Source: Glycomyces algeriensis (GTDB taxonomy: Bacteria; Actinomycetota; Actinomycetes; Mycobacteriales; Micromonosporaceae). Taken from it: a stretch of DNA of 64,000 nt. This document shows, piece by piece, positions 2,383 to 12,310 of this stretch. Where the stretch lies: contig NZ_JAPZVR010000005.1 of NCBI RefSeq assembly GCF_027622855.1, forward strand, positions 186,001 through 250,000. Reading direction: 5' to 3'. The notes under the pieces are model-generated. The model was not told the origin of the DNA. It saw only the letters and a list, made by a program, of their open reading frames with translations, and did not search any database. The position numbers were made by a program, and so were the translations under genes. Numbering within the stretch: the stretch's first letter is position 1; every line of letters starts with the position of its first letter.

Positions 2383-3741
2383 TTGTCCGTCCAGTCCCCT
2401 CCCGCTCCGACACAGGCGCCCAGCGCACCTGCTGCAACCGGGCAGCGACGGTTCGACCGCGTGCTGGCCGCGCTGCGGTTCACGCCCGGGCAGCTGCGCG
2501 GTGTGCTCGTCCTGGTCGCGGCGCTCATCCTCGGCGCCGGGATCACCGGCATGACCGCGATCATCGCGAAGTCGGCCGTCATCGAGGAGACCACCAGCCA
2601 GTCCGGGCGGCTCTCCGTGGCCGCCCTGTCGCTGTACCAGGCGCTCTCGCAGGCCGACGCGACCGCCGCGTCCTCGTACCTGACGGCGGGCACGCCCTCG
2701 GACGAGATGAACGAGACCTACCGCGAGGCGATGCGCGACGCCACCGTCGCCCTCGCCACGGCCGCAGGGGAAGTGAAGACCCCCGCTGACACCGCGCTGG
2801 TCGCCGAGCTCAACGCCCGCATGCCGGTCTACACCGGGCTGGTGGAGACCGCGCGGACCTTCAACCGCCTCGGCGAGCCCGTCGGCGCGACCTACCAGGA
2901 GCAGGCCTCCACGCTCATGCGCGAGGAGATGCTGCCGAAGGCGCACGACCTCCAGGAGAACTCGCTCGGGCAGCTGAACGACTCGCGCGCGGAGGCCGCG
3001 GCATTCCCGTGGGTCGCCGCCGGACTGGCCGTCGCCGCGCTCGGCACGCTCGTGTGGGCCCAGATGTGGCTCTCGCGCAAGACGAACCGCGTGTTCAACC
3101 TCGGGCTCGTCGGCAGCACCGTGCTGCTCGTCGGGTTCGCCGGCTGGCTCGCGACGGCCTCGCTGGCGTCGGCGAGCCACACCAACACGTCCCATGAGGA
3201 CGGTTCCGCGCCGCTCGAGCTGCTCGCCGAAGCCGAGATCACCGCCCAGCAGGCGCGCGCGGAGGAGTCCCTCCTGCTCATCGCGCGCGGCGAGGACCAG
3301 GCCGCCGCCGACCGCTTCGAAGAGCACTTCAAGGCCCTCACCGACCCCGGCAAGCTGCTCGACCGCCTCGACGAGGCGTTCGCGGACGACGCCGAGCTCT
3401 CTGCGAACATCGACACCGCCCGCGAGGCGGCCGAGACCTGGCGGGCCGGGCACGACGAGGTCGTCAAACTCGCCCAGAGCGGCCAGTACACCGACGCAGT
3501 GGTGCTCGTCGTCGGCGAAGGCGGCGGTGAGGACGCCCCCAGCCTGTGGACGTCCTTCACGACCCTCAACAACGCATTGACCGAAGCGACCGACGTCAGC
3601 GCCGAACGCTTCGCCGAGGCCACCAACGACGCCCAGAGGTCCCTCTCGGGCGCCGCGGCCGGGCTCGCGGCCCTGGCGCTCGGCGCGCTCATCAGCGCCG
3701 CGGTCGGCATCCAGCTTCGAGTGGCGGAGTACTACGCATGA
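2383..3741 (+). CDS. glnX: GlnX-like four-helix membrane protein of the GlnH/PknG amino-acid sensing system
   Basis: 452 residues. It starts at TTG with GAGGTG 7 bp upstream. Membrane helices lie at about 35-57, 208-230, 237-262 and 422-446, leaving two large extracytoplasmic domains (about 58-207 and 263-421) rich in Ala/Glu helices. In mycobacteria and corynebacteria GlnX passes the ligand state of lipoprotein GlnH across the membrane to kinase PknG; here the same three genes are adjacent in the same order. Sequence alone shows only the topology; the name rests on synteny. Its TGA overlaps the glnH ATG (ATGA). Confidence 0.82.
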   Translation: MSVQSPPAPTQAPSAPAATGQRRFDRVLAALRFTPGQLRGVLVLVAALILGAGITGMTAIIAKSAVIEETTSQSGRLSVAALSLYQALSQADATAASSYLTAGTPSDEMNETYREAMRDATVALATAAGEVKTPADTALVAELNARMPVYTGLVETARTFNRLGEPVGATYQEQASTLMREEMLPKAHDLQENSLGQLNDSRAEAAAFPWVAAGLAVAALGTLVWAQMWLSRKTNRVFNLGLVGSTVLLVGFAGWLATASLASASHTNTSHEDGSAPLELLAEAEITAQQARAEESLLLIARGEDQAAADRFEEHFKALTDPGKLLDRLDEAFADDAELSANIDTAREAAETWRAGHDEVVKLAQSGQYTDAVVLVVGEGGGEDAPSLWTSFTTLNNALTEATDVSAERFAEATNDAQRSLSGAAAGLAALALGALISAAVGIQLRVAEYYA

Positions 3742-4694
3742 TCCGAAACCAGCTCCGGCTCGCGGCCGCAGCCGCCGCCTGCCTCGTCCTCGCCGCCTGC
3801 TCGCAGCCGGCCGACATGGGGCCGCCGCAGGTCGACGTCCCCACGCCCCTGCCCTCGGGGATCGACTTCTCCCCCGAGATCGAGACCGAACCGGTCGACG
3901 AGAGCTGCACGCCGCTCGCGTCCTACAACCCCGGCACGACCTCGGTCGAGCAGGCGATCGCCGGCCTCGACAACCAGGACCAGATCACCATCGGCGTCAG
4001 CCAGTCCACGAACCTCATGGGCTACATCGACCCCGAGACGAACACCCCCGCCGGGTTCGACATCGACATCGCCACCGCGATCGCCCACTCGATCCTCGGC
4101 CCCGACGCGACCATCCGCTGGGTCCCCATGACCTCCGGCGAGCGCGAAGAGGCCGTCAACAGCGACCGGGTCGACATGGTCGTGCGCACCATGACCATGA
4201 ACTGCAAGCGCTGGGCCAACGTCGAGTTCTCCGCCGAGTACTTCCACGCCGGCCAGCGCCTCCTCGTGCCGACCGCCTCGGGCATCACGGGCCTCGCCGA
4301 CCTCGCCGACGACCACCGCGTGTGCACCGGCGACGGCTCCACCTCCGTGCGCACCATCGCCGAGCAGTCCGCGGCCCAGGCCGTCACCGTCCCGGACTTC
4401 AACGACTGCCTCGTCCTGCTCCAGCAGGGCACCGTCGACGCCATCACCAGCGACGACACGATCCTCGCGGGCATGGCCGCCCAGGACCCGACCCTCGAGG
4501 TCGTGGGCGAGGCATTCTCCCAGGAGCCCTACGGGATGGCCTTCCAGAAGGGCAACACCGACCTCGCCCGCTACGTCAACGGCGCCCTCGCCCAGATCAT
4601 CGCGAACGGCACCTGGCAGACCGCCTACAACAAGTGGCTCGAAGGGCCGCTGGGCGTCCCGGGCGTGCCGCCGACCCCCCAGTACCGGGATTAA
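3738..4694 (+). CDS. glnH: GlnH-type amino-acid-binding lipoprotein
   Basis: 318 residues with a lipoprotein signal (lipobox LAAC, Cys about 21), then a family 3 periplasmic solute-binding fold: ITIGVSQSTNLMGYIDP, GFDIDIATAIAHSILG, VDMVVRTMTM and an AITSDDTIL hinge segment. The class binds Asp/Glu/Gln or other polar amino acids. No ABC permease or ATPase genes are present, so a receptor role is more likely than transport, as for mycobacterial GlnH, which signals through GlnX to PknG. It overlaps glnX by 4 bp and lies 9 bp before pknG. Confidence 0.9.
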   Translation: MIRNQLRLAAAAAACLVLAACSQPADMGPPQVDVPTPLPSGIDFSPEIETEPVDESCTPLASYNPGTTSVEQAIAGLDNQDQITIGVSQSTNLMGYIDPETNTPAGFDIDIATAIAHSILGPDATIRWVPMTSGEREEAVNSDRVDMVVRTMTMNCKRWANVEFSAEYFHAGQRLLVPTASGITGLADLADDHRVCTGDGSTSVRTIAEQSAAQAVTVPDFNDCLVLLQQGTVDAITSDDTILAGMAAQDPTLEVVGEAFSQEPYGMAFQKGNTDLARYVNGALAQIIANGTWQTAYNKWLEGPLGVPGVPPTPQYRD

Positions 4695-4703
4695 GGGAGC
4701 GCC

Positions 4704-7139
4704 ATGAGCGACCAGCAGCCGCCTCCAGAGCACACCCAGCGGTACCTCCCGGGCGCACACCAGCCCGAAGGCGAGGCCACCGACACCGTCAGCATCCGCA
4801 AGCGGCTCAACACGCCGCCCGCAGTGCCGCCGCAGCCGGGCTTCGCGCCCACGCCCCCCGGCCCGCCCGGGACCAACGCGTTCCCGCCGCAGCACAGCGC
4901 CGCGCCCATCGCGCCGAACTCGGCGCCGCCGGTCCACTCGCCTTCCGCGCCACCGGTCTCACCGCCGCTGCCGCAGCCGGGCACGCTGGGCCTCGCGCCC
5001 GCCGGCGCCCTGCACTCGCCGCCCCCGGCCCCGTACCGGGCCCCCGCCGCGCCACTGCCGCAGCCGATCACCGGCCCCGTCACGCGCTCCACGACCACCA
5101 GCGCCCGCCAGCGCGGCGGCCTCTCCGACATGCCGCCCGTGCCGCCCCGCGACCCCGCCGAAGCGGTCATGGAGCACCCGCAGGTGCCCGAGCACAAGCG
5201 GTTCTGCTCCTCGTGCGGCAAGCCCGTCGGCCGGCCCCAGGCCGGGCGCGCGGGCCGCGTCGAGGGCTACTGCGCGCACTGCCGCACCCGGTACTGGTTC
5301 ACGCCCGCGCTCAGTCCTGGTGACGTCCTCTCCGAGCGCTACGAGGTGCTCGGCGCCATCGCCCACGGCGGCCTCGGCTGGATCTACCTCGCCAACGACA
5401 AGAACTTCGCCGACGACCTGACGCAGCGCTGGGTCGTCATCAAGGGCCTCATCAACACCTCGGACGAGGACGCGATCGAGGCCGCGATCAACGAGCGGCG
5501 CTTCCTCGTCGGCATCGACCACCCCAACGTGGTCGACATCCACGACTTCGTGACCGCCGCCGACCCGCGCTCGGGCCAGCTCCAGTCGTACATCGTCATG
5601 GAGTACCTGGCAGGGAAGTCCTTGCGGGACATCAGGGACGCGGTCGACGAGAACGGCGAGCGCAAGCCGCTGCCGCTGGAGCAGGTGCTCACCTACACCG
5701 CCGAACTGCTGCCCGCGTTCAGCTACCTGCACGACCGGGGCCTGCTGTTCTGCGACTTCAAGCCGGACAACATGATCCACGTCGAGACCTGGCTCAAGCT
5801 CATCGACCTCGGCGCGGTGCGCCACGTCGACGACATGGAGTCGGCGATCTACGGCACGCCCGGGTACTCGGTGCCGAACGACGAGATCCTCTCCGTGGGG
5901 CCGTCGGTGACCTCGGACCTGTACACGATCGGCCGCTCGATGGCCGTGCTGGCCTTGGACTTCAAGGGGTTCACCAGCACCTACCGCGACAAGCTGCCCC
6001 CGGCCTCCGAAGCGCCCGCGTTCGCCGAGTTCGGGTCGTTCCACCGGCTGCTGCTGCGCGCCACGAACGCCGAGCCGCGCTCGCGGTTCCAGGACGCGGA
6101 CGAGATGCGCTCCCAGGTGCGCGGCGTGCTGCACGAGGTGCAGTCGGTGCAGAAGGGCGAGCCGCGGTTCGAGCCGTCGACGCTGTTCAGCGGCGAGCAG
6201 GCCGTGTTCGGCGAGCCCGATGTGGAGTACGACATCCACGCCGTGGGCGACCCGTTCGACGTGGCGCACGCGCTGCCCGCGCCGATGGTCGACCTCGCCG
6301 ACCCGATGGCCGCGTTCATGGCGACCCTCCAGGCCACTGATGCCGCGGGCATCCTCGCCGAGCTCAACGCCGCGCCCGTGCAGAGCCCCGAGGTGCATCT
6401 GCGGCGCGTCCGGACGCTCGTCAACGCCGGGGACCTGCACCAGGCCAACGCGGCGCTCGACCAGTTCGCGCAGCGCGAGGGCAACACCTGGCAGGTCACC
6501 TGGCTGCGCGGCACGATCTCGCTGCTCGCGGCCGATTTCCACACGGCCGCAGCGCATTTCGACGCCGTCTACTCGCACCTCCCCGGAGAGCTGGCCCCGC
6601 GCCTGGCGCTGGCGGCGTGCGCGGAGATGGCGGGCCGACGCGACCTGGCCCTGCCGCACTACACGCGGATCTGGACCTGCGACCACCGGTTCGTCTCGGC
6701 CGCGTACGGCCGGGCGCGCCTGCTCGACCTCGAGGGGAACTCGACGGAGGCGATCTCGACGCTGCACCAGGTCCCGAAGACCTCGGCGCAGTACGGGATC
6801 GCGCAGACCGCGGCGATCCAGACCGCGCTGCACTCGCGCACGTCGCCGCCGTCGCTGCTGGACCTGCACCACATGGCCGGGCGGCTCGACGAGCTGAAGC
6901 TCGAGCCGCGGCGCCGCCACCTGGTGTCGACCCGCATCCTCCACCTGGCGCTGGACACGGTGCTGCGCACCGGGCCCGCGCACGAGCCGCGCGTGTTCGG
7001 CGCGCAGCCGGAGGAGCGGGAGCTGCGCCTGGCGCTGGAGCGGACCTACCGTGACCTCGCCCACGCCTGCACCCGCAGGGAGGACCAGGTGTACTACTTC
7101 GACCTGGCGAACGAACACCGTCCCCGCACGATGCTGTAG
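4704..7139 (+). CDS. pknG: Serine/threonine protein kinase PknG (rubredoxin, kinase, TPR)
   Basis: 811 residues; mycobacterial PknG is about 750. Order: Pro-rich disordered N-tail (1-160); rubredoxin-like metal site with Cys168-x2-Cys171 and Cys190-x2-Cys193; kinase domain from about 213 with Gly-loop AHGGLG, VVIKGL lysine, catalytic Asp351 in CDFKPDN (replacing HRD) and Asp368 in DLG (replacing DFG); TPR region about 520-790. No membrane helix, so soluble. PknG controls glutamate and TCA metabolism by phosphorylating GarA/OdhI FHA proteins, and its metal site affects activity. It lies between its receptor genes and a PP2C/FHA pair. Confidence 0.95.
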   Translation: MSDQQPPPEHTQRYLPGAHQPEGEATDTVSIRKRLNTPPAVPPQPGFAPTPPGPPGTNAFPPQHSAAPIAPNSAPPVHSPSAPPVSPPLPQPGTLGLAPAGALHSPPPAPYRAPAAPLPQPITGPVTRSTTTSARQRGGLSDMPPVPPRDPAEAVMEHPQVPEHKRFCSSCGKPVGRPQAGRAGRVEGYCAHCRTRYWFTPALSPGDVLSERYEVLGAIAHGGLGWIYLANDKNFADDLTQRWVVIKGLINTSDEDAIEAAINERRFLVGIDHPNVVDIHDFVTAADPRSGQLQSYIVMEYLAGKSLRDIRDAVDENGERKPLPLEQVLTYTAELLPAFSYLHDRGLLFCDFKPDNMIHVETWLKLIDLGAVRHVDDMESAIYGTPGYSVPNDEILSVGPSVTSDLYTIGRSMAVLALDFKGFTSTYRDKLPPASEAPAFAEFGSFHRLLLRATNAEPRSRFQDADEMRSQVRGVLHEVQSVQKGEPRFEPSTLFSGEQAVFGEPDVEYDIHAVGDPFDVAHALPAPMVDLADPMAAFMATLQATDAAGILAELNAAPVQSPEVHLRRVRTLVNAGDLHQANAALDQFAQREGNTWQVTWLRGTISLLAADFHTAAAHFDAVYSHLPGELAPRLALAACAEMAGRRDLALPHYTRIWTCDHRFVSAAYGRARLLDLEGNSTEAISTLHQVPKTSAQYGIAQTAAIQTALHSRTSPPSLLDLHHMAGRLDELKLEPRRRHLVSTRILHLALDTVLRTGPAHEPRVFGAQPEERELRLALERTYRDLAHACTRREDQVYYFDLANEHRPRTML

Positions 7140-7151
7140 CGAAGGAGCCCT

Positions 7152-8219
7152 ATGCAGCCCTCATCCACCTTGGGCGCCGCGAAGCGTTGCACCGCTTGCG
7201 GTCTCCCCGCCGACATCGGCCGCTACTGCGAGGATTGCGGCGGCGATCTGGAGGAGTTCGCGGTCCCGGCCGAGGAGGTCCCCTGGCGTTCCTCCATCGC
7301 GGTCGAGGAGAACACCGACCATCCCGGCGGCTCGGACGACCACATCGCGTTCGTGCTGCCCGGGATCGGCGCCGCGACCGACGTGGGCCACCGGCACCAC
7401 TACAACCAGGACTCGATCGCGATCGCGGTCGCCGACGACGGGCGCAAGATCGCGGTCGTCTGCGACGGCGTCTCCGGCGCCTCGGACTCCGAGCGCGCGT
7501 CACTCGCAGGAGTGGAAGCGGCCGTGACGGAGATCCGCGCGGCGCTCGGCGAGGGGCTCACCGCGGAGGACGCGTCGCGCCGCGGCGTGGGCGCGGCCCA
7601 CTCGGCGGTGGCCGCGGTCGGGAAGCAGTACCCGAACTCGCCGCCGTCCTCCACGTACGTCTCGGCCGTGGTCGAGGGGAACCAGGCGATCCTGTGCTGG
7701 GTCGGCGATTCGCGAGCGTACTGGGCCGGCGAGAAAGAGGCGAGATGCCTCACGGTGGACGACACGATCCAGGCCCGCCTGGAGTACCAGGGGGTCGACC
7801 CGGCGGACGAGCGCTACAAGAACCCGTACGCCAAGGCCCTGCTCGCGTGGCTCGGCGCGGACGCGCCGACCCTCAACCCGAACCTCCTCCGGGTGGATCT
7901 GGGCGGTGGGCATGTCGTAGTGTGCAGCGATGGTCTGTCGCGCTATTTCAATGACGATCACGACCTTCTGCCACTGCCGGACGGCAGCGTTGGCGACAAG
8001 GCGGTAGCGTTGACACGACAAGCGCTCGCCAACGGCGGGCACGACAACATCAGTGTCGCGGTGGTGGAACTCGAATCCCCCGGTTCGGTCCAGGCCGACG
8101 GTCATGCCCAGGAGCATGCCGGCCAGGACGTCCAGAACCAGGGTGACGGGTCCGCCGCGCCCTCTGGTGTCGTCAGCGAGGCCGAGTACACCCAAATGCT
8201 TGGAGGGGGACGACCTTGA
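7152..8219 (+). CDS. PP2C-family protein phosphatase with N-terminal zinc ribbon
   Basis: 355 residues. An N-terminal zinc ribbon (Cys13-x2-Cys16, Cys26-x2-Cys29) precedes a PP2C domain whose metal and catalytic motifs are all visible: NQDS, VCDGVSG, VGDSRAY, CSDGLS and GGHDNISV. It should remove phosphate from Ser/Thr in the cytoplasm and is the natural antagonist of PknG, 12 bp upstream. A good Shine-Dalgarno (AAGGAG) precedes the ATG. The C-terminal 50 residues are Gln/Gly-rich. Its stop overlaps the TTG start of the FHA gene, so the two are translationally coupled. Confidence 0.92.
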
Positions 8220-9427
8220 CCTACCAGCCGACCTACGGCGGTGCCCCACAGCCGGGCGGGTACCAGTGCGCATGCGGGGCCTTCCCGCAAGCCCAGTTCT
8301 GCGAGCAGTGCGGAACGCCCAACCCGGCGTGGCAGCAAGGCCAGCCCCCGCAGTCGCCGGCCTTCGGCCAGGGCTACGCCCCGAACGACCCTTACGGGCA
8401 GCCTCAGGACCCCTACGGGCAGCAACAGCAGCAGCCCGGCGGTTACGGCCAGCAGGACCCGTACGGCCAGCCCCAGCAGCAGGACCCCTACGGGCAACCG
8501 CAGCAGGGCTACGGCCAGCAGGACCCCTACGGGCAGCCGTCGCAGCCGCAAGACCCTTACGCGCAGCCTCAGCAGGGTTACGGACAGCAGGACCCCTACG
8601 GCCAGCAGCAGCCCCAGCAGGGGTACGGCCAGGACCCGTACGGCCAGCCGTCCCAGCCCCAGCAGGACCCTTACGGGCAGCCGCAGCAGGGCTACGGGCA
8701 GCAGGATCCTTACGCCCAGCCGCAGCAGCAGGACCCTTACGGTCAGCAGCCCGGCGGATACGGCCAGCAGGACCCGTACGGCCAGCCCCAGCAGCAGGAC
8801 CCCTACGGGCAACCGCAGCAGGGCTACGGCCAGGACCCGTACGCGCAGCAGGCGTACGGCGCCGCGCCGACCTCGGCTCCGCCCGGACCGCCTCCGGGCG
8901 TCCCGGCCGCGCCGTTCGGCGCCCCGACCTCCGCGCCGCCCGCATCGGCGACCGGCGGGTTCTCCATGCCGGACGCGCAGCCGAGCGACCTCGCGTCGAA
9001 CTACGCCCCGCCCGGCCAGGCGGCCACCCGCTGGGGTGTCGCCGTCACCGCCGACCAGGGCTACTTCAACAAGGTCGCGGCCTCTGACGGGGCCTCGCAG
9101 CTGCAGTACCCGTCGTTCGCGAAGCCGCGCCGCTTCCCGCTCGACAAGCCGGACCTCACGATCGGCCGCTACAGCGCCAAGCGCGGCGTCACCCCGGACA
9201 TCGACCTGTCCGGCGACGTCGCCGACCCGGGCGTGAGCGCGCAGCACGCGAAGCTGTTCTCCAAGCCCGACGGCTCCTGGACGATCATGGACGTCGGCTC
9301 CTCGAACGGCACGTTCCTCAACGGCTCCGACGAGCCGCTGGCGCCGAACGTGGAGTTCCCGGTGACCGACGGGACCTACATCAACATCGGCGCGTGGACG
9401 CGCCTGACGGTCCACTACGAGGGTTAA
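8216..9427 (+). CDS. FHA-domain protein with zinc ribbon and DPYGQ low-complexity repeats
   Basis: 403 residues from TTG 8216 (TTGA overlap with the phosphatase stop). Parts: zinc ribbon Cys18-x-Cys20 / Cys29-x2-Cys32; about 160 residues of repeating DPYGQPQQ and GYGQQ units; a Pro/Ala linker; FHA domain at about 315-400 with the phosphothreonine-binding residues in [14 protein letters not shown] and [12 protein letters not shown] domains read phosphothreonine. By position it is the likely PknG partner or substrate, playing the GarA/OdhI role, but the ETTS phospho-site of GarA is absent. The Tyr/Gln/Gly repeats suggest condensate or scaffold behaviour (inference). Confidence 0.9.
8429..8833 (+). 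repeat. Intragenic duplication in the DPYGQ region (90-bp copies 315 bp apart)
   Basis: Positions 8429-8518 and 8744-8833 are identical except one base (8443 T versus 8758 A). The 315-bp offset equals 105 codons. Shorter 21-45 bp repeats fill the space between. Confidence 0.85.
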
Positions 9428-9438
9428 GACGCAACAGG

Positions 9439-9468
9439 AAAGGCCGGGTCCATCGGACCCGGCCTTTT
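9439..9468. terminator. Intrinsic terminator ending the glnX-FHA operon
   Basis: Stem AAGGCCGGGTC / GACCCGGCCTT followed by TTCT, 12 bp after the FHA stop. It also separates the convergent hydrolase gene. Confidence 0.85.
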
Positions 9469-11053: not shown

Positions 11054-12310
11054 CTAGACATCGCATTCGCTCGCTTCGCCGGTGTACGAGAACGTCACCG
11101 CGACCTGCTCGGACAGCGCCCGCGTCGAGCCCGGCTCGGGCGACTGGCCGATGATCTCGCAGTCCTCGTGGGACCAGTCGAAGACGCCGCGCTCCTCCCC
11201 CGACTGGTCCACGCCGGCGAAACCCGCCGCCTCGACGGCCTGCACGGCCTCGGCGGTCGACATGCCCATCACGTCGGGCACCGAACCGGTCGGCGCGCTC
11301 TCGGTCGTCGGCTGCGACTCCTCCGTCGGGTCCTCCTCGGCGCCCTGGTCCTCGGGGTCCTGCACGGTCTCCTCAGGGGTGGGCGACGCCGAGGCGCTCG
11401 TGCTGGCCTCCGCGGAGGGCGTGTCGCTCGTCTCGGGCGAGGCGGCCGTGGTCGGCTCGGAAGTCGTTGCGGCGGAAGCGCTCTCATCGATGGCGGCGTC
11501 GTCGTCGGCGGTGTCGCCGTCGCCGAGCTGGGAGCCGAACGCGGCCCCCGCGCCGACCACGACCAGCAGCGCGGCGGCCACCACGACCGCGCGTTTCTGG
11601 CCGCCGCGTCGCTTCGGAGCCTCCTGCTCCTCGACGAACGGCAGCTCGCGGGTGGCCACGGGAGCGGCCTCAGCGGCGAGGACCTTCGCGTGCGGGGCGG
11701 CGAGCACGGGTTCGAGACCGAAGCGGCGGCGCAGCATCGTGGCCGCGAGCGGGGTGCGGGCCGCGCCGCCCGCCATCAGCAGGCCCGCGAGCTCGGCGGG
11801 GTGGACGCCGGCCTCGGCGAGGGTCTCCTCCATGACGTCCGCGGTCGTCGCGACCAGCTCCTCGACGCGCGACTCGAACTCGTCGCGCGTCAGCGGCATC
11901 TTGATGTCCGCTGCGGGCAGCGTGATGACGGTGAAGTCGCGCTCGGAGAGCTGCTCCCGCGCCTGCGTGATCTTCTCCAGGAGGAGGGCGCGCAGCTGCC
12001 GGTCGGCCGGTTCGGCCGGGTCGGCGATGCGGGACCAGAGGCGGACGCCGGCGTCGGGATGGCGGCCCGAGAGGTACGCCAGGATGAGGCCGTCGAACTC
12101 GGCGCCGCCGATCGGCTCGGTGCGCTCGGCGGCGACGACGAAACTGCTCTCGATGCGGCGCACGACGGCGGCGTGGAACGAGGAGCGGCCGAGGCGGTAG
12201 ACCGCGAAGGCGGCGCCGGAGGGGAGGGAGCCTCCGGTGGAACTGCTGAGACTTGCCGCGGCGGCCCCGGGGTCGATCCGGACCGATGCGGCCGGGGGGA
12301 CGTTCTGCAT
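11054..12310 (-). CDS. Membrane protein: partial Hsp70-type ATPase domain plus PASTA domain
   Basis: 418 residues from ATG 12310 (a GTG at 12373 would add 21). The first 200 residues match the second half of an Hsp70 nucleotide-binding domain: an AAFAVYRLG strand where Hsp70 has the DLGGGT region, GGAEFDGLI, and LLMAGGAARTPLAATMLRRRFG near the end. The first phosphate loop (DLGTTNS) of real Hsp70 is missing. A membrane helix (about 235-255), a Ser/Thr/Glu-rich linker and a PASTA domain (about 345-410) follow. PASTA domains bind muropeptides outside the cell, so this may link cell-wall state to the inside. Confidence 0.75.
   Translation of the reverse strand: MQNVPPAASVRIDPGAAAASLSSSTGGSLPSGAAFAVYRLGRSSFHAAVVRRIESSFVVAAERTEPIGGAEFDGLILAYLSGRHPDAGVRLWSRIADPAEPADRQLRALLLEKITQAREQLSERDFTVITLPAADIKMPLTRDEFESRVEELVATTADVMEETLAEAGVHPAELAGLLMAGGAARTPLAATMLRRRFGLEPVLAAPHAKVLAAEAAPVATRELPFVEEQEAPKRRGGQKRAVVVAAALLVVVGAGAAFGSQLGDGDTADDDAAIDESASAATTSEPTTAASPETSDTPSAEASTSASASPTPEETVQDPEDQGAEEDPTEESQPTTESAPTGSVPDVMGMSTAEAVQAVEAAGFAGVDQSGEERGVFDWSHEDCEIIGQSPEPGSTRALSEQVAVTFSYTGEASECDV

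Follow-up and report, generated by a model that had tools for sequence, protein, structure and literature searches.

Among the closest described relatives of the locus analysed here is the GlnX-GlnH-PknG/GarA-OdhI pathway of Mycobacterium and Corynebacterium, for which amino acid sensing by GlnH and GlnX and the activation of PknG have been established or proposed (PMC6069109, PMC9769921). The GlnX-GlnH-PknG gene arrangement is conserved in actinobacteria (PMC6069109), and the word “phosphatase” does not occur in the main text of that article. A second relevant system is the TerY-P triad, which consists of a TerY-like vWA protein, a PP2C phosphatase and a kinase with a zinc ribbon (PMC11090510; also PMC4978471). 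We analysed a 64,000-nucleotide stretch of Glycomyces algeriensis DNA (the window; positions 186001-250000 of contig C30 in the 5.59-Mb genome G000) and find that five genes at 2383-9427 form one signalling operon, in which an amino-acid-sensing kinase is accompanied by a linked phosphatase and a phospho-reader:

2383-3741, + strand: glnX, membrane signal transducer of the GlnX subfamily (NF058618, 366.9 bits, cut-off 250)
3738-4694, + strand: glnH, solute-binding lipoprotein, a relative of the mycobacterial Asp/Glu-binding GlnH (SBP_bac_3, 99 bits)
4704-7139, + strand: pknG, Ser/Thr kinase with rubredoxin and TPR domains (PF16919, PF00069, PF16918)
7152-8219, + strand: PP2C-type Ser/Thr phosphatase with an N-terminal zinc ribbon (PF13672 (PP2C_2), 53.2 bits, above cut-off)
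8216-9427, + strand: FHA protein with a ribbon, Tyr/Gln/Gly/Pro-rich repeats and a C-terminal FHA domain (PF00498, 49.5 bits, above cut-off)
9439-9467, + strand: terminator-like stem-loop 3' of the operon, AAAGGCCGGGTCC-ATC-GGACCCGGCCTTT

Coordinates and domain matches bear out a preliminary description of this DNA, which had reported five co-directional genes with 4-bp overlaps or gaps of 9-12 bp: glnX and glnH overlap by 4 bp (ATGA), glnH and pknG are 9 bp apart, pknG and the PP2C gene 12 bp, and the FHA gene starts with TTG at 8216 in a 4-bp overlap (TTGA) with the PP2C gene. The same overlaps and gaps are found in the Glycomyces relative L006, and the closest named pknG relatives of the window are from Glycomyces (top identity 96%). 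The terminator placed at the operon end by that description is visible by eye as the stem at 9439-9467, but it was not listed by a terminator scan.

The first three products belong to known families. The glnX frame opens with TTG at 2383, with GAGGTG six bases 5' of it; this start is uncertain, as a codon-usage caller favours 2461 as an alternative, and the product scores 207.5 bits against the strict GlnX equivalog kinGactiv_GlnX (NF041460), whose cut-off is 780. GlnH is probably an amino-acid-binding lipoprotein, judging by its homology to M. tuberculosis GlnH (6h2t, E 5e-61) and its LAAC lipobox. The kinase has the features of the PknG family, a PF00069 kinase domain followed by the PF16918 TPR domain (231 bits), both above cut-off, and a rubredoxin-type domain before the kinase (PF16919, 86.2 bits, cut-off 28.5); over residues 137-809 the protein matches M. 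tuberculosis PknG (2pzi, E 2.5e-132). The metal-site motifs of the phosphatase (NQD, CDG, GDSRAY, CSDG and GGHDN) are intact as judged by eye. The operon thus shares with the mycobacterial and corynebacterial system the GlnX subfamily, GlnH, a PknG with rubredoxin and TPR domains and the gene order, but adds PP2C and an FHA protein that is not GarA, and the GarA encoded elsewhere in this genome lacks the PknG-specific threonine.

The linkage is conserved well beyond this strain. We compared 150 pknG loci, comprising 78 from named records, 71 from further genomes and the window; the 78 are relatives of the query and are biased towards it, and two pairs of loci have identical PknG (L009/L164 and L076/L251). 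Among the genes on the pknG strand within 7.5 kb, a PP2C gene is present at 113/150 loci, an FHA gene at 92/150 and a vWA gene at 79/150, and at 112 of the 113 the PP2C frame lies downstream, at most 300 bp from the pknG frame. All five genes are found at 21 of the 23 Glycomyces-type loci (the window, L006-L026 and L164; the PknG of L009 is that of L164), and the remaining two loci, L013 and L015, start at the edge of a contig. For 59 PknG genomes of 13 families, which are related to each other and whose loci were chosen from drawn samples (G200 and G214 being represented by their second pknG locus only), PP2C is encoded near pknG in 34, vWA in 38 and FHA in 33; all 13 families include at least one genome with PP2C there, and 12 of the 13 at least one with FHA. 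In a class sample of 296 genomes, PknG occurs in 98 and this FHA subfamily in 77, with both in 71, only FHA in 6, only PknG in 27 and neither in 192 (Fisher test, 3e-38, a value that overstates independence because the sampled genomes are related). PknG is encoded at most 8 kb away in 62 of the 77 FHA-subfamily genomes, and in 49 of the 52 outside family f68. The preliminary description would have been refuted by a lack of conserved linkage of pknG to PP2C and zinc-ribbon FHA genes in relatives; instead, that linkage is conserved. A chance or Glycomyces-only arrangement is ruled out by the three surveys taken together.

We consider it probable that the operon is a self-contained nutrient-signalling circuit, the Glycomyces-type reduction of a conserved GlnX-GlnH-coiled coil-PknG-PP2C-vWA-FHA module. 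What we observe in its favour is the gene content, the domains, the intact phosphothreonine-binding residues of the FHA domain, and the conserved linkage and co-occurrence; that the direction of change was reduction we infer. By analogy with mycobacterial and corynebacterial work, extracellular Asp/Glu-type amino acids would be bound by the lipoprotein GlnH, the signal would be relayed across the membrane by GlnX, and PknG would be activated via its TPR domain. PknG may then autophosphorylate conserved threonines of its long N-terminal tail, and the operon FHA protein would dock on these phosphothreonines as a dedicated reader and a probable substrate or scaffold, while the linkage and intact motifs of the operon PP2C suggest that it would remove the phospho-marks. 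Candidate outputs are the operon FHA protein itself, GarA, or both. The receptor-kinase-phosphatase-reader circuit of the preliminary description is supported in part: the linkage is conserved and the FHA protein is other than GarA, but the metal or redox input, taken up below, is not supported.

Several observations weigh against this circuit. Of the 98 PknG genomes in the class sample, 27 lack this FHA subfamily, as 6 of the 77 FHA genomes lack PknG, and that comparison takes the PknG and FHA draws to be the same genomes. A second, unlinked FHA-subfamily member is common in family f68. In family f2 only 1/11 genomes has any of PP2C, vWA and FHA near pknG (PP2C in 1/11), and in family f52 PP2C is near pknG in 2/11 and FHA in 0/11, so PknG can do without PP2C; loci named Lentzea have the PP2C gene, and FHA was not seen there. 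The genome holds six PP2C_2 matches, and other phosphatases could serve. GarA is also encoded in the genome and may be the true PknG target. Family identities such as “mycobacterial” were judged from sequence.

The presence of GarA leads to the conventional alternative, an ordinary GlnH-GlnX-PknG-GarA pathway in which phosphorylation of GarA by PknG controls 2-oxoglutarate metabolism, the PP2C dephosphorylates GarA, and the operon FHA protein is an accessory scaffold only. GlnX, GlnH and PknG plainly belong to that pathway, and a GarA-type match was found in 27/27 and 29/30 genomes searched. The phosphatase Ppp dephosphorylates OdhI in C. glutamicum (PMC9769921), and a report from a non-mycobacterial genus, Saccharopolyspora, also describes GarA-type regulation (PMC12321487). 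However, conserved linkage favours the operon FHA protein as the partner, and in relatives of families f1 and f68 the N-terminus of GarA is similar whether or not PknG is present. In addition, this genome's GarA has DVTATM at the position of the ETTSVF motif of mycobacterial-type GarA, which places Val at the equivalent of Thr21, the residue named as the PknG site of GarA (PMC8546545), and its frame runs into a nuclease domain. The weight of the Thr21 argument is limited. Thr occupies this position in 17 of the 52 motifs recognised (from 56 GarA genes, 4 of which fall outside the pattern), and we rejected the idea that the GarA phosphosite tracks operon type, with Arg or Lys in 5/5 genomes of f52 with minimal operons and Thr in 4/4 genomes of f4 with the full module. 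Because the residue varies independently of operon type across the 56 genomes, the Val was not used to favour the operon FHA protein. Overall, we regard the ordinary GarA pathway as an unlikely explanation of the operon.

The operon FHA protein is distinct from GarA, as the preliminary description had proposed. GarA is encoded by a separate gene and is 34% identical to the operon protein over 89 residues, with 24.1 bits the operon protein falls short of the OdhI equivalog cut-off (200), and an ETTS motif is absent from its 403 residues. What the two have in common is an FHA fold in an actinobacterial protein of PknG context; the operon protein differs in its length, its ribbon and its Tyr/Gln repeats. 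The GarA gene itself (L001:1300-2187; G000:C33:77380 onward) lacks the ordinary C-terminal end, and its reading frame continues into a bifunctional-nuclease (BFN) domain, while in three other Glycomyces genomes GarA ends normally; the GarA-BFN frame is either a real fusion by deletion or an assembly error.

Further features of PknG and the FHA protein, among them a candidate site of the proposed docking, are as follows:

4734-4736, + strand: codon of PknG Thr11 (EHTQRY), a candidate autophosphorylation and FHA-docking site, invariant in Glycomyces, with a putative function
8378-8864, + strand (ends approximate): stretch of DPYGQ/GYGQ-type repeats, length-variable among Glycomyces
9008-9424, + strand: FHA domain with a conserved WxVxVxxD strand-helix lead-in (alignment; AlphaFold2 model; FHA folds in the PDB)

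The Arg, Ser and Asn of the FHA phosphothreonine-binding site are invariant in 24/24 aligned sequences. The AlphaFold2 model of the domain displays an FHA fold with a strand and a helix in front (predicted local distance difference test score, pLDDT, 90.8), and sequence and fold searches of the PDB confirmed the FHA fold only. Ribbon and FHA domain are separated by a stretch rich in Gln, Gly, Pro and Tyr, whose length and repeat number vary among Glycomyces, and three FHA sequences of the Streptomyces-like family f4 have long Gly/Pro- or Gln/Pro-rich linkers at the same place; disorder, clustering or scaffold behaviour of the Tyr/Gln stretch is a guess. The N-terminal tail of PknG is variable among Glycomyces apart from a few motifs, which include Thr11, Thr28, Thr123, Thr127 and Thr131, all invariant in 20/20 Glycomyces N-termini (two of them identical). 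Like Thr11, the latter four threonines are candidate sites of autophosphorylation and FHA docking, by their conservation. In mycobacteria and corynebacteria, N-terminal autophosphorylation sites of PknG recruit the FHA substrate (PMC8546545).

The genome encodes five FHA domains in total, namely the GarA-type one, two beside another PP2C, one other and that of the operon. The PP2C beside two FHA genes is on contig C6, at what is presumably the place of the housekeeping phosphatase PstP, which makes the operon phosphatase an additional one.

Three of the operon products contain paired cysteines, at exactly the positions given in the preliminary description:

5205-5282, + strand: four-cysteine, rubredoxin-type site of PknG (residues 168-193; Cys 168/171/190/193; PF16919)
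7188-7238, + strand: zinc ribbon of PP2C (residues 13-29; Cys 13/16/26/29; conserved pattern)
8267-8311, + strand: zinc ribbon of the FHA protein (residues 18-32; Cys 18/20/29/32, CxC...CxxC; conserved pattern)

These sites are conserved beyond chance. Among the 150 pknG loci, the CxxC..CxxC pattern is kept in 110 of the 113 PP2C proteins and a Cys/His ribbon in 90 of the 92 FHA proteins, and the same patterns are rare in unassigned open reading frames of more than 200 residues (31/5122 and 60/5122, a comparison set that includes many frames that will not be genes). The PknG site matches a strict pattern at 121/150 loci and a relaxed one at 146/150. Glycomyces has a single ribbon in PP2C (23/23) and in FHA (21/23) and an extra PknG ribbon in 0/23; outside Glycomyces two ribbons are usual in PP2C (78/90) and FHA (60/69), and a ribbon-like pattern lies N-terminal to the PknG rubredoxin site in 75/127.

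The preliminary description proposed that the three ribbons confer a metal or redox input on the circuit. The strong conservation of the cysteines speaks for this, and redox or metal-centre effects have been published for mycobacterial PknG (PMC4401782, PMC8546545). However, ribbons are a common accessory in these proteins: GarA has an N-terminal four-cysteine ribbon of its own in 29 of 56 genomes (L204-L232 and L186, L200), although the ribbon was absent from the GarA of families f1, f2, f50, f52 and Glycomyces among those examined. Furthermore, corynebacterial PknG functions without the rubredoxin domain, which it lacks (PMC8546545), and structural or interaction roles explain the cysteine conservation equally well. 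Real and conserved as they are, the ribbons do not point to a metal or redox input special to this operon, which we consider improbable.

The operon is better understood against the layouts of its relatives, a point absent from the preliminary description. The fullest of these is (TelA-F2-AAA)-glnX-glnH-coiled-coil-pknG-PP2C-vWA-FHA, found with the TelA-F2-AAA genes at 29/150 loci and, from GlnX onward, at 20/150. The Glycomyces form (GlnX-GlnH-PknG-PP2C-FHA) accounts for 21/150 loci, the minimal GlnX-GlnH-PknG form for 20/150, and GlnX-GlnH-PknG-PP2C for 16/150 (14 named Lentzea, one Nocardia and one further genome); the remaining 44/150 are mixed, truncated or paralogous arrangements. Pfam names TelA (300 bits), AAA, a PP2C with a double zinc ribbon and a vWA protein with VWA_3_C at a Cellulomonas locus, and FHA at one Nocardioides and one Nocardia locus. 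The coiled-coil protein of the relatives, whose gene is absent from the Glycomyces operon, is mostly helical in an AlphaFold2 model (pLDDT 86.6), and nothing in the PDB matches it with an E value of 0.001 or lower. It looks as though a larger kinase-PP2C-vWA-FHA module stands behind the operon.

On the best reading, the circuit resembles the TerY-P kinase-PP2C-vWA triad, with the vWA protein missing in Glycomyces. The triad is reportedly due to Anantharaman 2012. Kinase, PP2C and ribbons occur together in both systems, and the wider module of the relatives adds vWA and, in some cases, TelA and an AAA ATPase. The differences are that the Glycomyces kinase is a PknG, with its ribbon at the N-terminal side and a TPR domain, that the operon also includes amino-acid receptor genes and a gene for an FHA reader, and that vWA is lacking: of the TerY-P features, the operon has the PP2C and lacks a C-terminal kinase ribbon, and no TerY-like vWA gene was found in it or within 7.5 kb of pknG. 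An association of kinase-ribbon proteins, PP2C and vWA has been described in actinobacteria in GAP1-N2-linked neighbourhoods, where a zinc-ribbon kinase is encoded beside PP2C and a stand-alone vWA protein; PknG and GlnX/GlnH go unmentioned in the available text of that article, in which FHA is an effector domain of other systems (PMC7159879).

This resemblance raises a further possibility: at its core, the system could be a module for stress or defence of the TerY-P type, with a stress response as its output and amino acid sensing as just one of its inputs. The definition of TerY-P as vWA, PP2C and zinc-ribbon kinase (PMC11090510), the actinobacterial association just described, the occurrence near pknG of vWA at 79/150 and of a TelA-like gene at 32/150 loci, and the Cellulomonas locus all agree with this. 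However, no vWA, TelA or AAA gene is present in the Glycomyces operon. Searches of the whole genome returned no TelA (the positive controls were found) and no vWA of this family (with one relative's protein as the query and without a positive control); AAA was not searched genome-wide. The ribbons are N-terminal to the kinase rather than C-terminal, and PP2C, FHA and a relative's vWA protein have no PADLOC match. We hold the stress-module reading to be rather improbable. An anti-phage role was also considered and rejected, as the PADLOC models left these three proteins unmatched and the PknG hits, to kinase models, were confined to its kinase region.

To follow the direction of change we built a quick PknG tree from 91 of the 150 rows; the 59 left out are near-copies, truncated or frame-broken sequences and some solitary or divergent paralogues. 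In this tree 23 of 88 inner branches are open, long branches meet among the paralogues without PP2C, and the midpoint root is for drawing only. Nine minimal-operon PknG proteins of f2, which is probably Mycobacteriaceae because its GarA is of the ETTSVF type, form one clade, whose sister is the full-module PknG of G500 (Shimodaira-Hasegawa-like approximate likelihood ratio test, SH-aLRT, 99). Seven minimal-operon PknG proteins of f52, probably Pseudonocardiaceae, are placed elsewhere, among PP2C-bearing loci, and the Glycomyces PknG groups with the full-module f50 (96). As minimal operons fall in separate places, one clade of them beside a full-module PknG, parsimony on this unrooted tree suggests that the three-gene operons may have arisen by repeated trimming. 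Both the Glycomyces operon and the mycobacterial three-gene version look like trimmed-down variants of a larger module present in many actinomycete families. More tentatively, PknG may have begun as a TerY-P-like kinase-PP2C-vWA-FHA system placed under amino-acid receptors, with the three-gene operon and GarA/OdhI control as later, repeated reductions and rewirings; Glycomyces would have lost vWA, its role passing to an FHA protein with a disordered Tyr/Gln tail that may form phospho-dependent clusters. We think this fuller history possible, though doubtful.

G500, of a mycobacterial-type family, has two minimal operons and one full GlnX-GlnH-coiled coil-PknG-PP2C-vWA-FHA module (L256, L257 and L258), which makes it well suited to a comparison of the two forms. 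PknG is much studied, yet discussions of its phosphatase and of how its FHA partnership arose usually start from the minimal operon of mycobacteria and corynebacteria. A conserved operon with linked phosphatase and reader is a natural set for reconstitution and predicts losses or replacements elsewhere, and the role of PknG in Streptomyces, Nocardioides and Glycomyces becomes directly testable. Full-text literature searches found, in the text they covered, no association of PknG with a linked PP2C, vWA or non-GarA FHA gene; a description may exist in Anantharaman 2012 or in figures (Fig. 2B, PMC6069109).

Some loci depart from these layouts. A cyanobacterial record (Phormidium, L070:4376-13116) has a coiled coil-PknG-PP2C-vWA-FHA-GlnX-like row, which means that the module either extends beyond actinobacteria or has been transferred. 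Two Glycomyces genomes have a second, divergent pknG locus (L149 and L150) with the order PknG-vWA-FHA-GlnX-GlnH, in which no PP2C was found, and the same is true of L140, L147, L152, L162, L165 and L168 (five of f52, one of f1), which encode a divergent PknG-like kinase, vWA and a GlnX-like protein. On a contig labelled Acidobacteriaceae (L048), which is possibly misbinned, the module PknG groups with Actinosynnema and another relative. A plasmid-borne origin was rejected: the one match in a plasmid collection (44.7% over 34% of the FHA protein) is to an 11.85-Mb record, which at that size is probably a chromosome.

Beside the operon, a cytidine/deoxycytidylate deaminase-type gene (1754-2263, - strand) is divergent from glnX, a place taken in mycobacteria by the Nudix gene renU (PMC4401782). 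Beyond its 3' end, in the product of 11054-12310 (- strand), a PASTA domain comes after an Hsp70-like segment.

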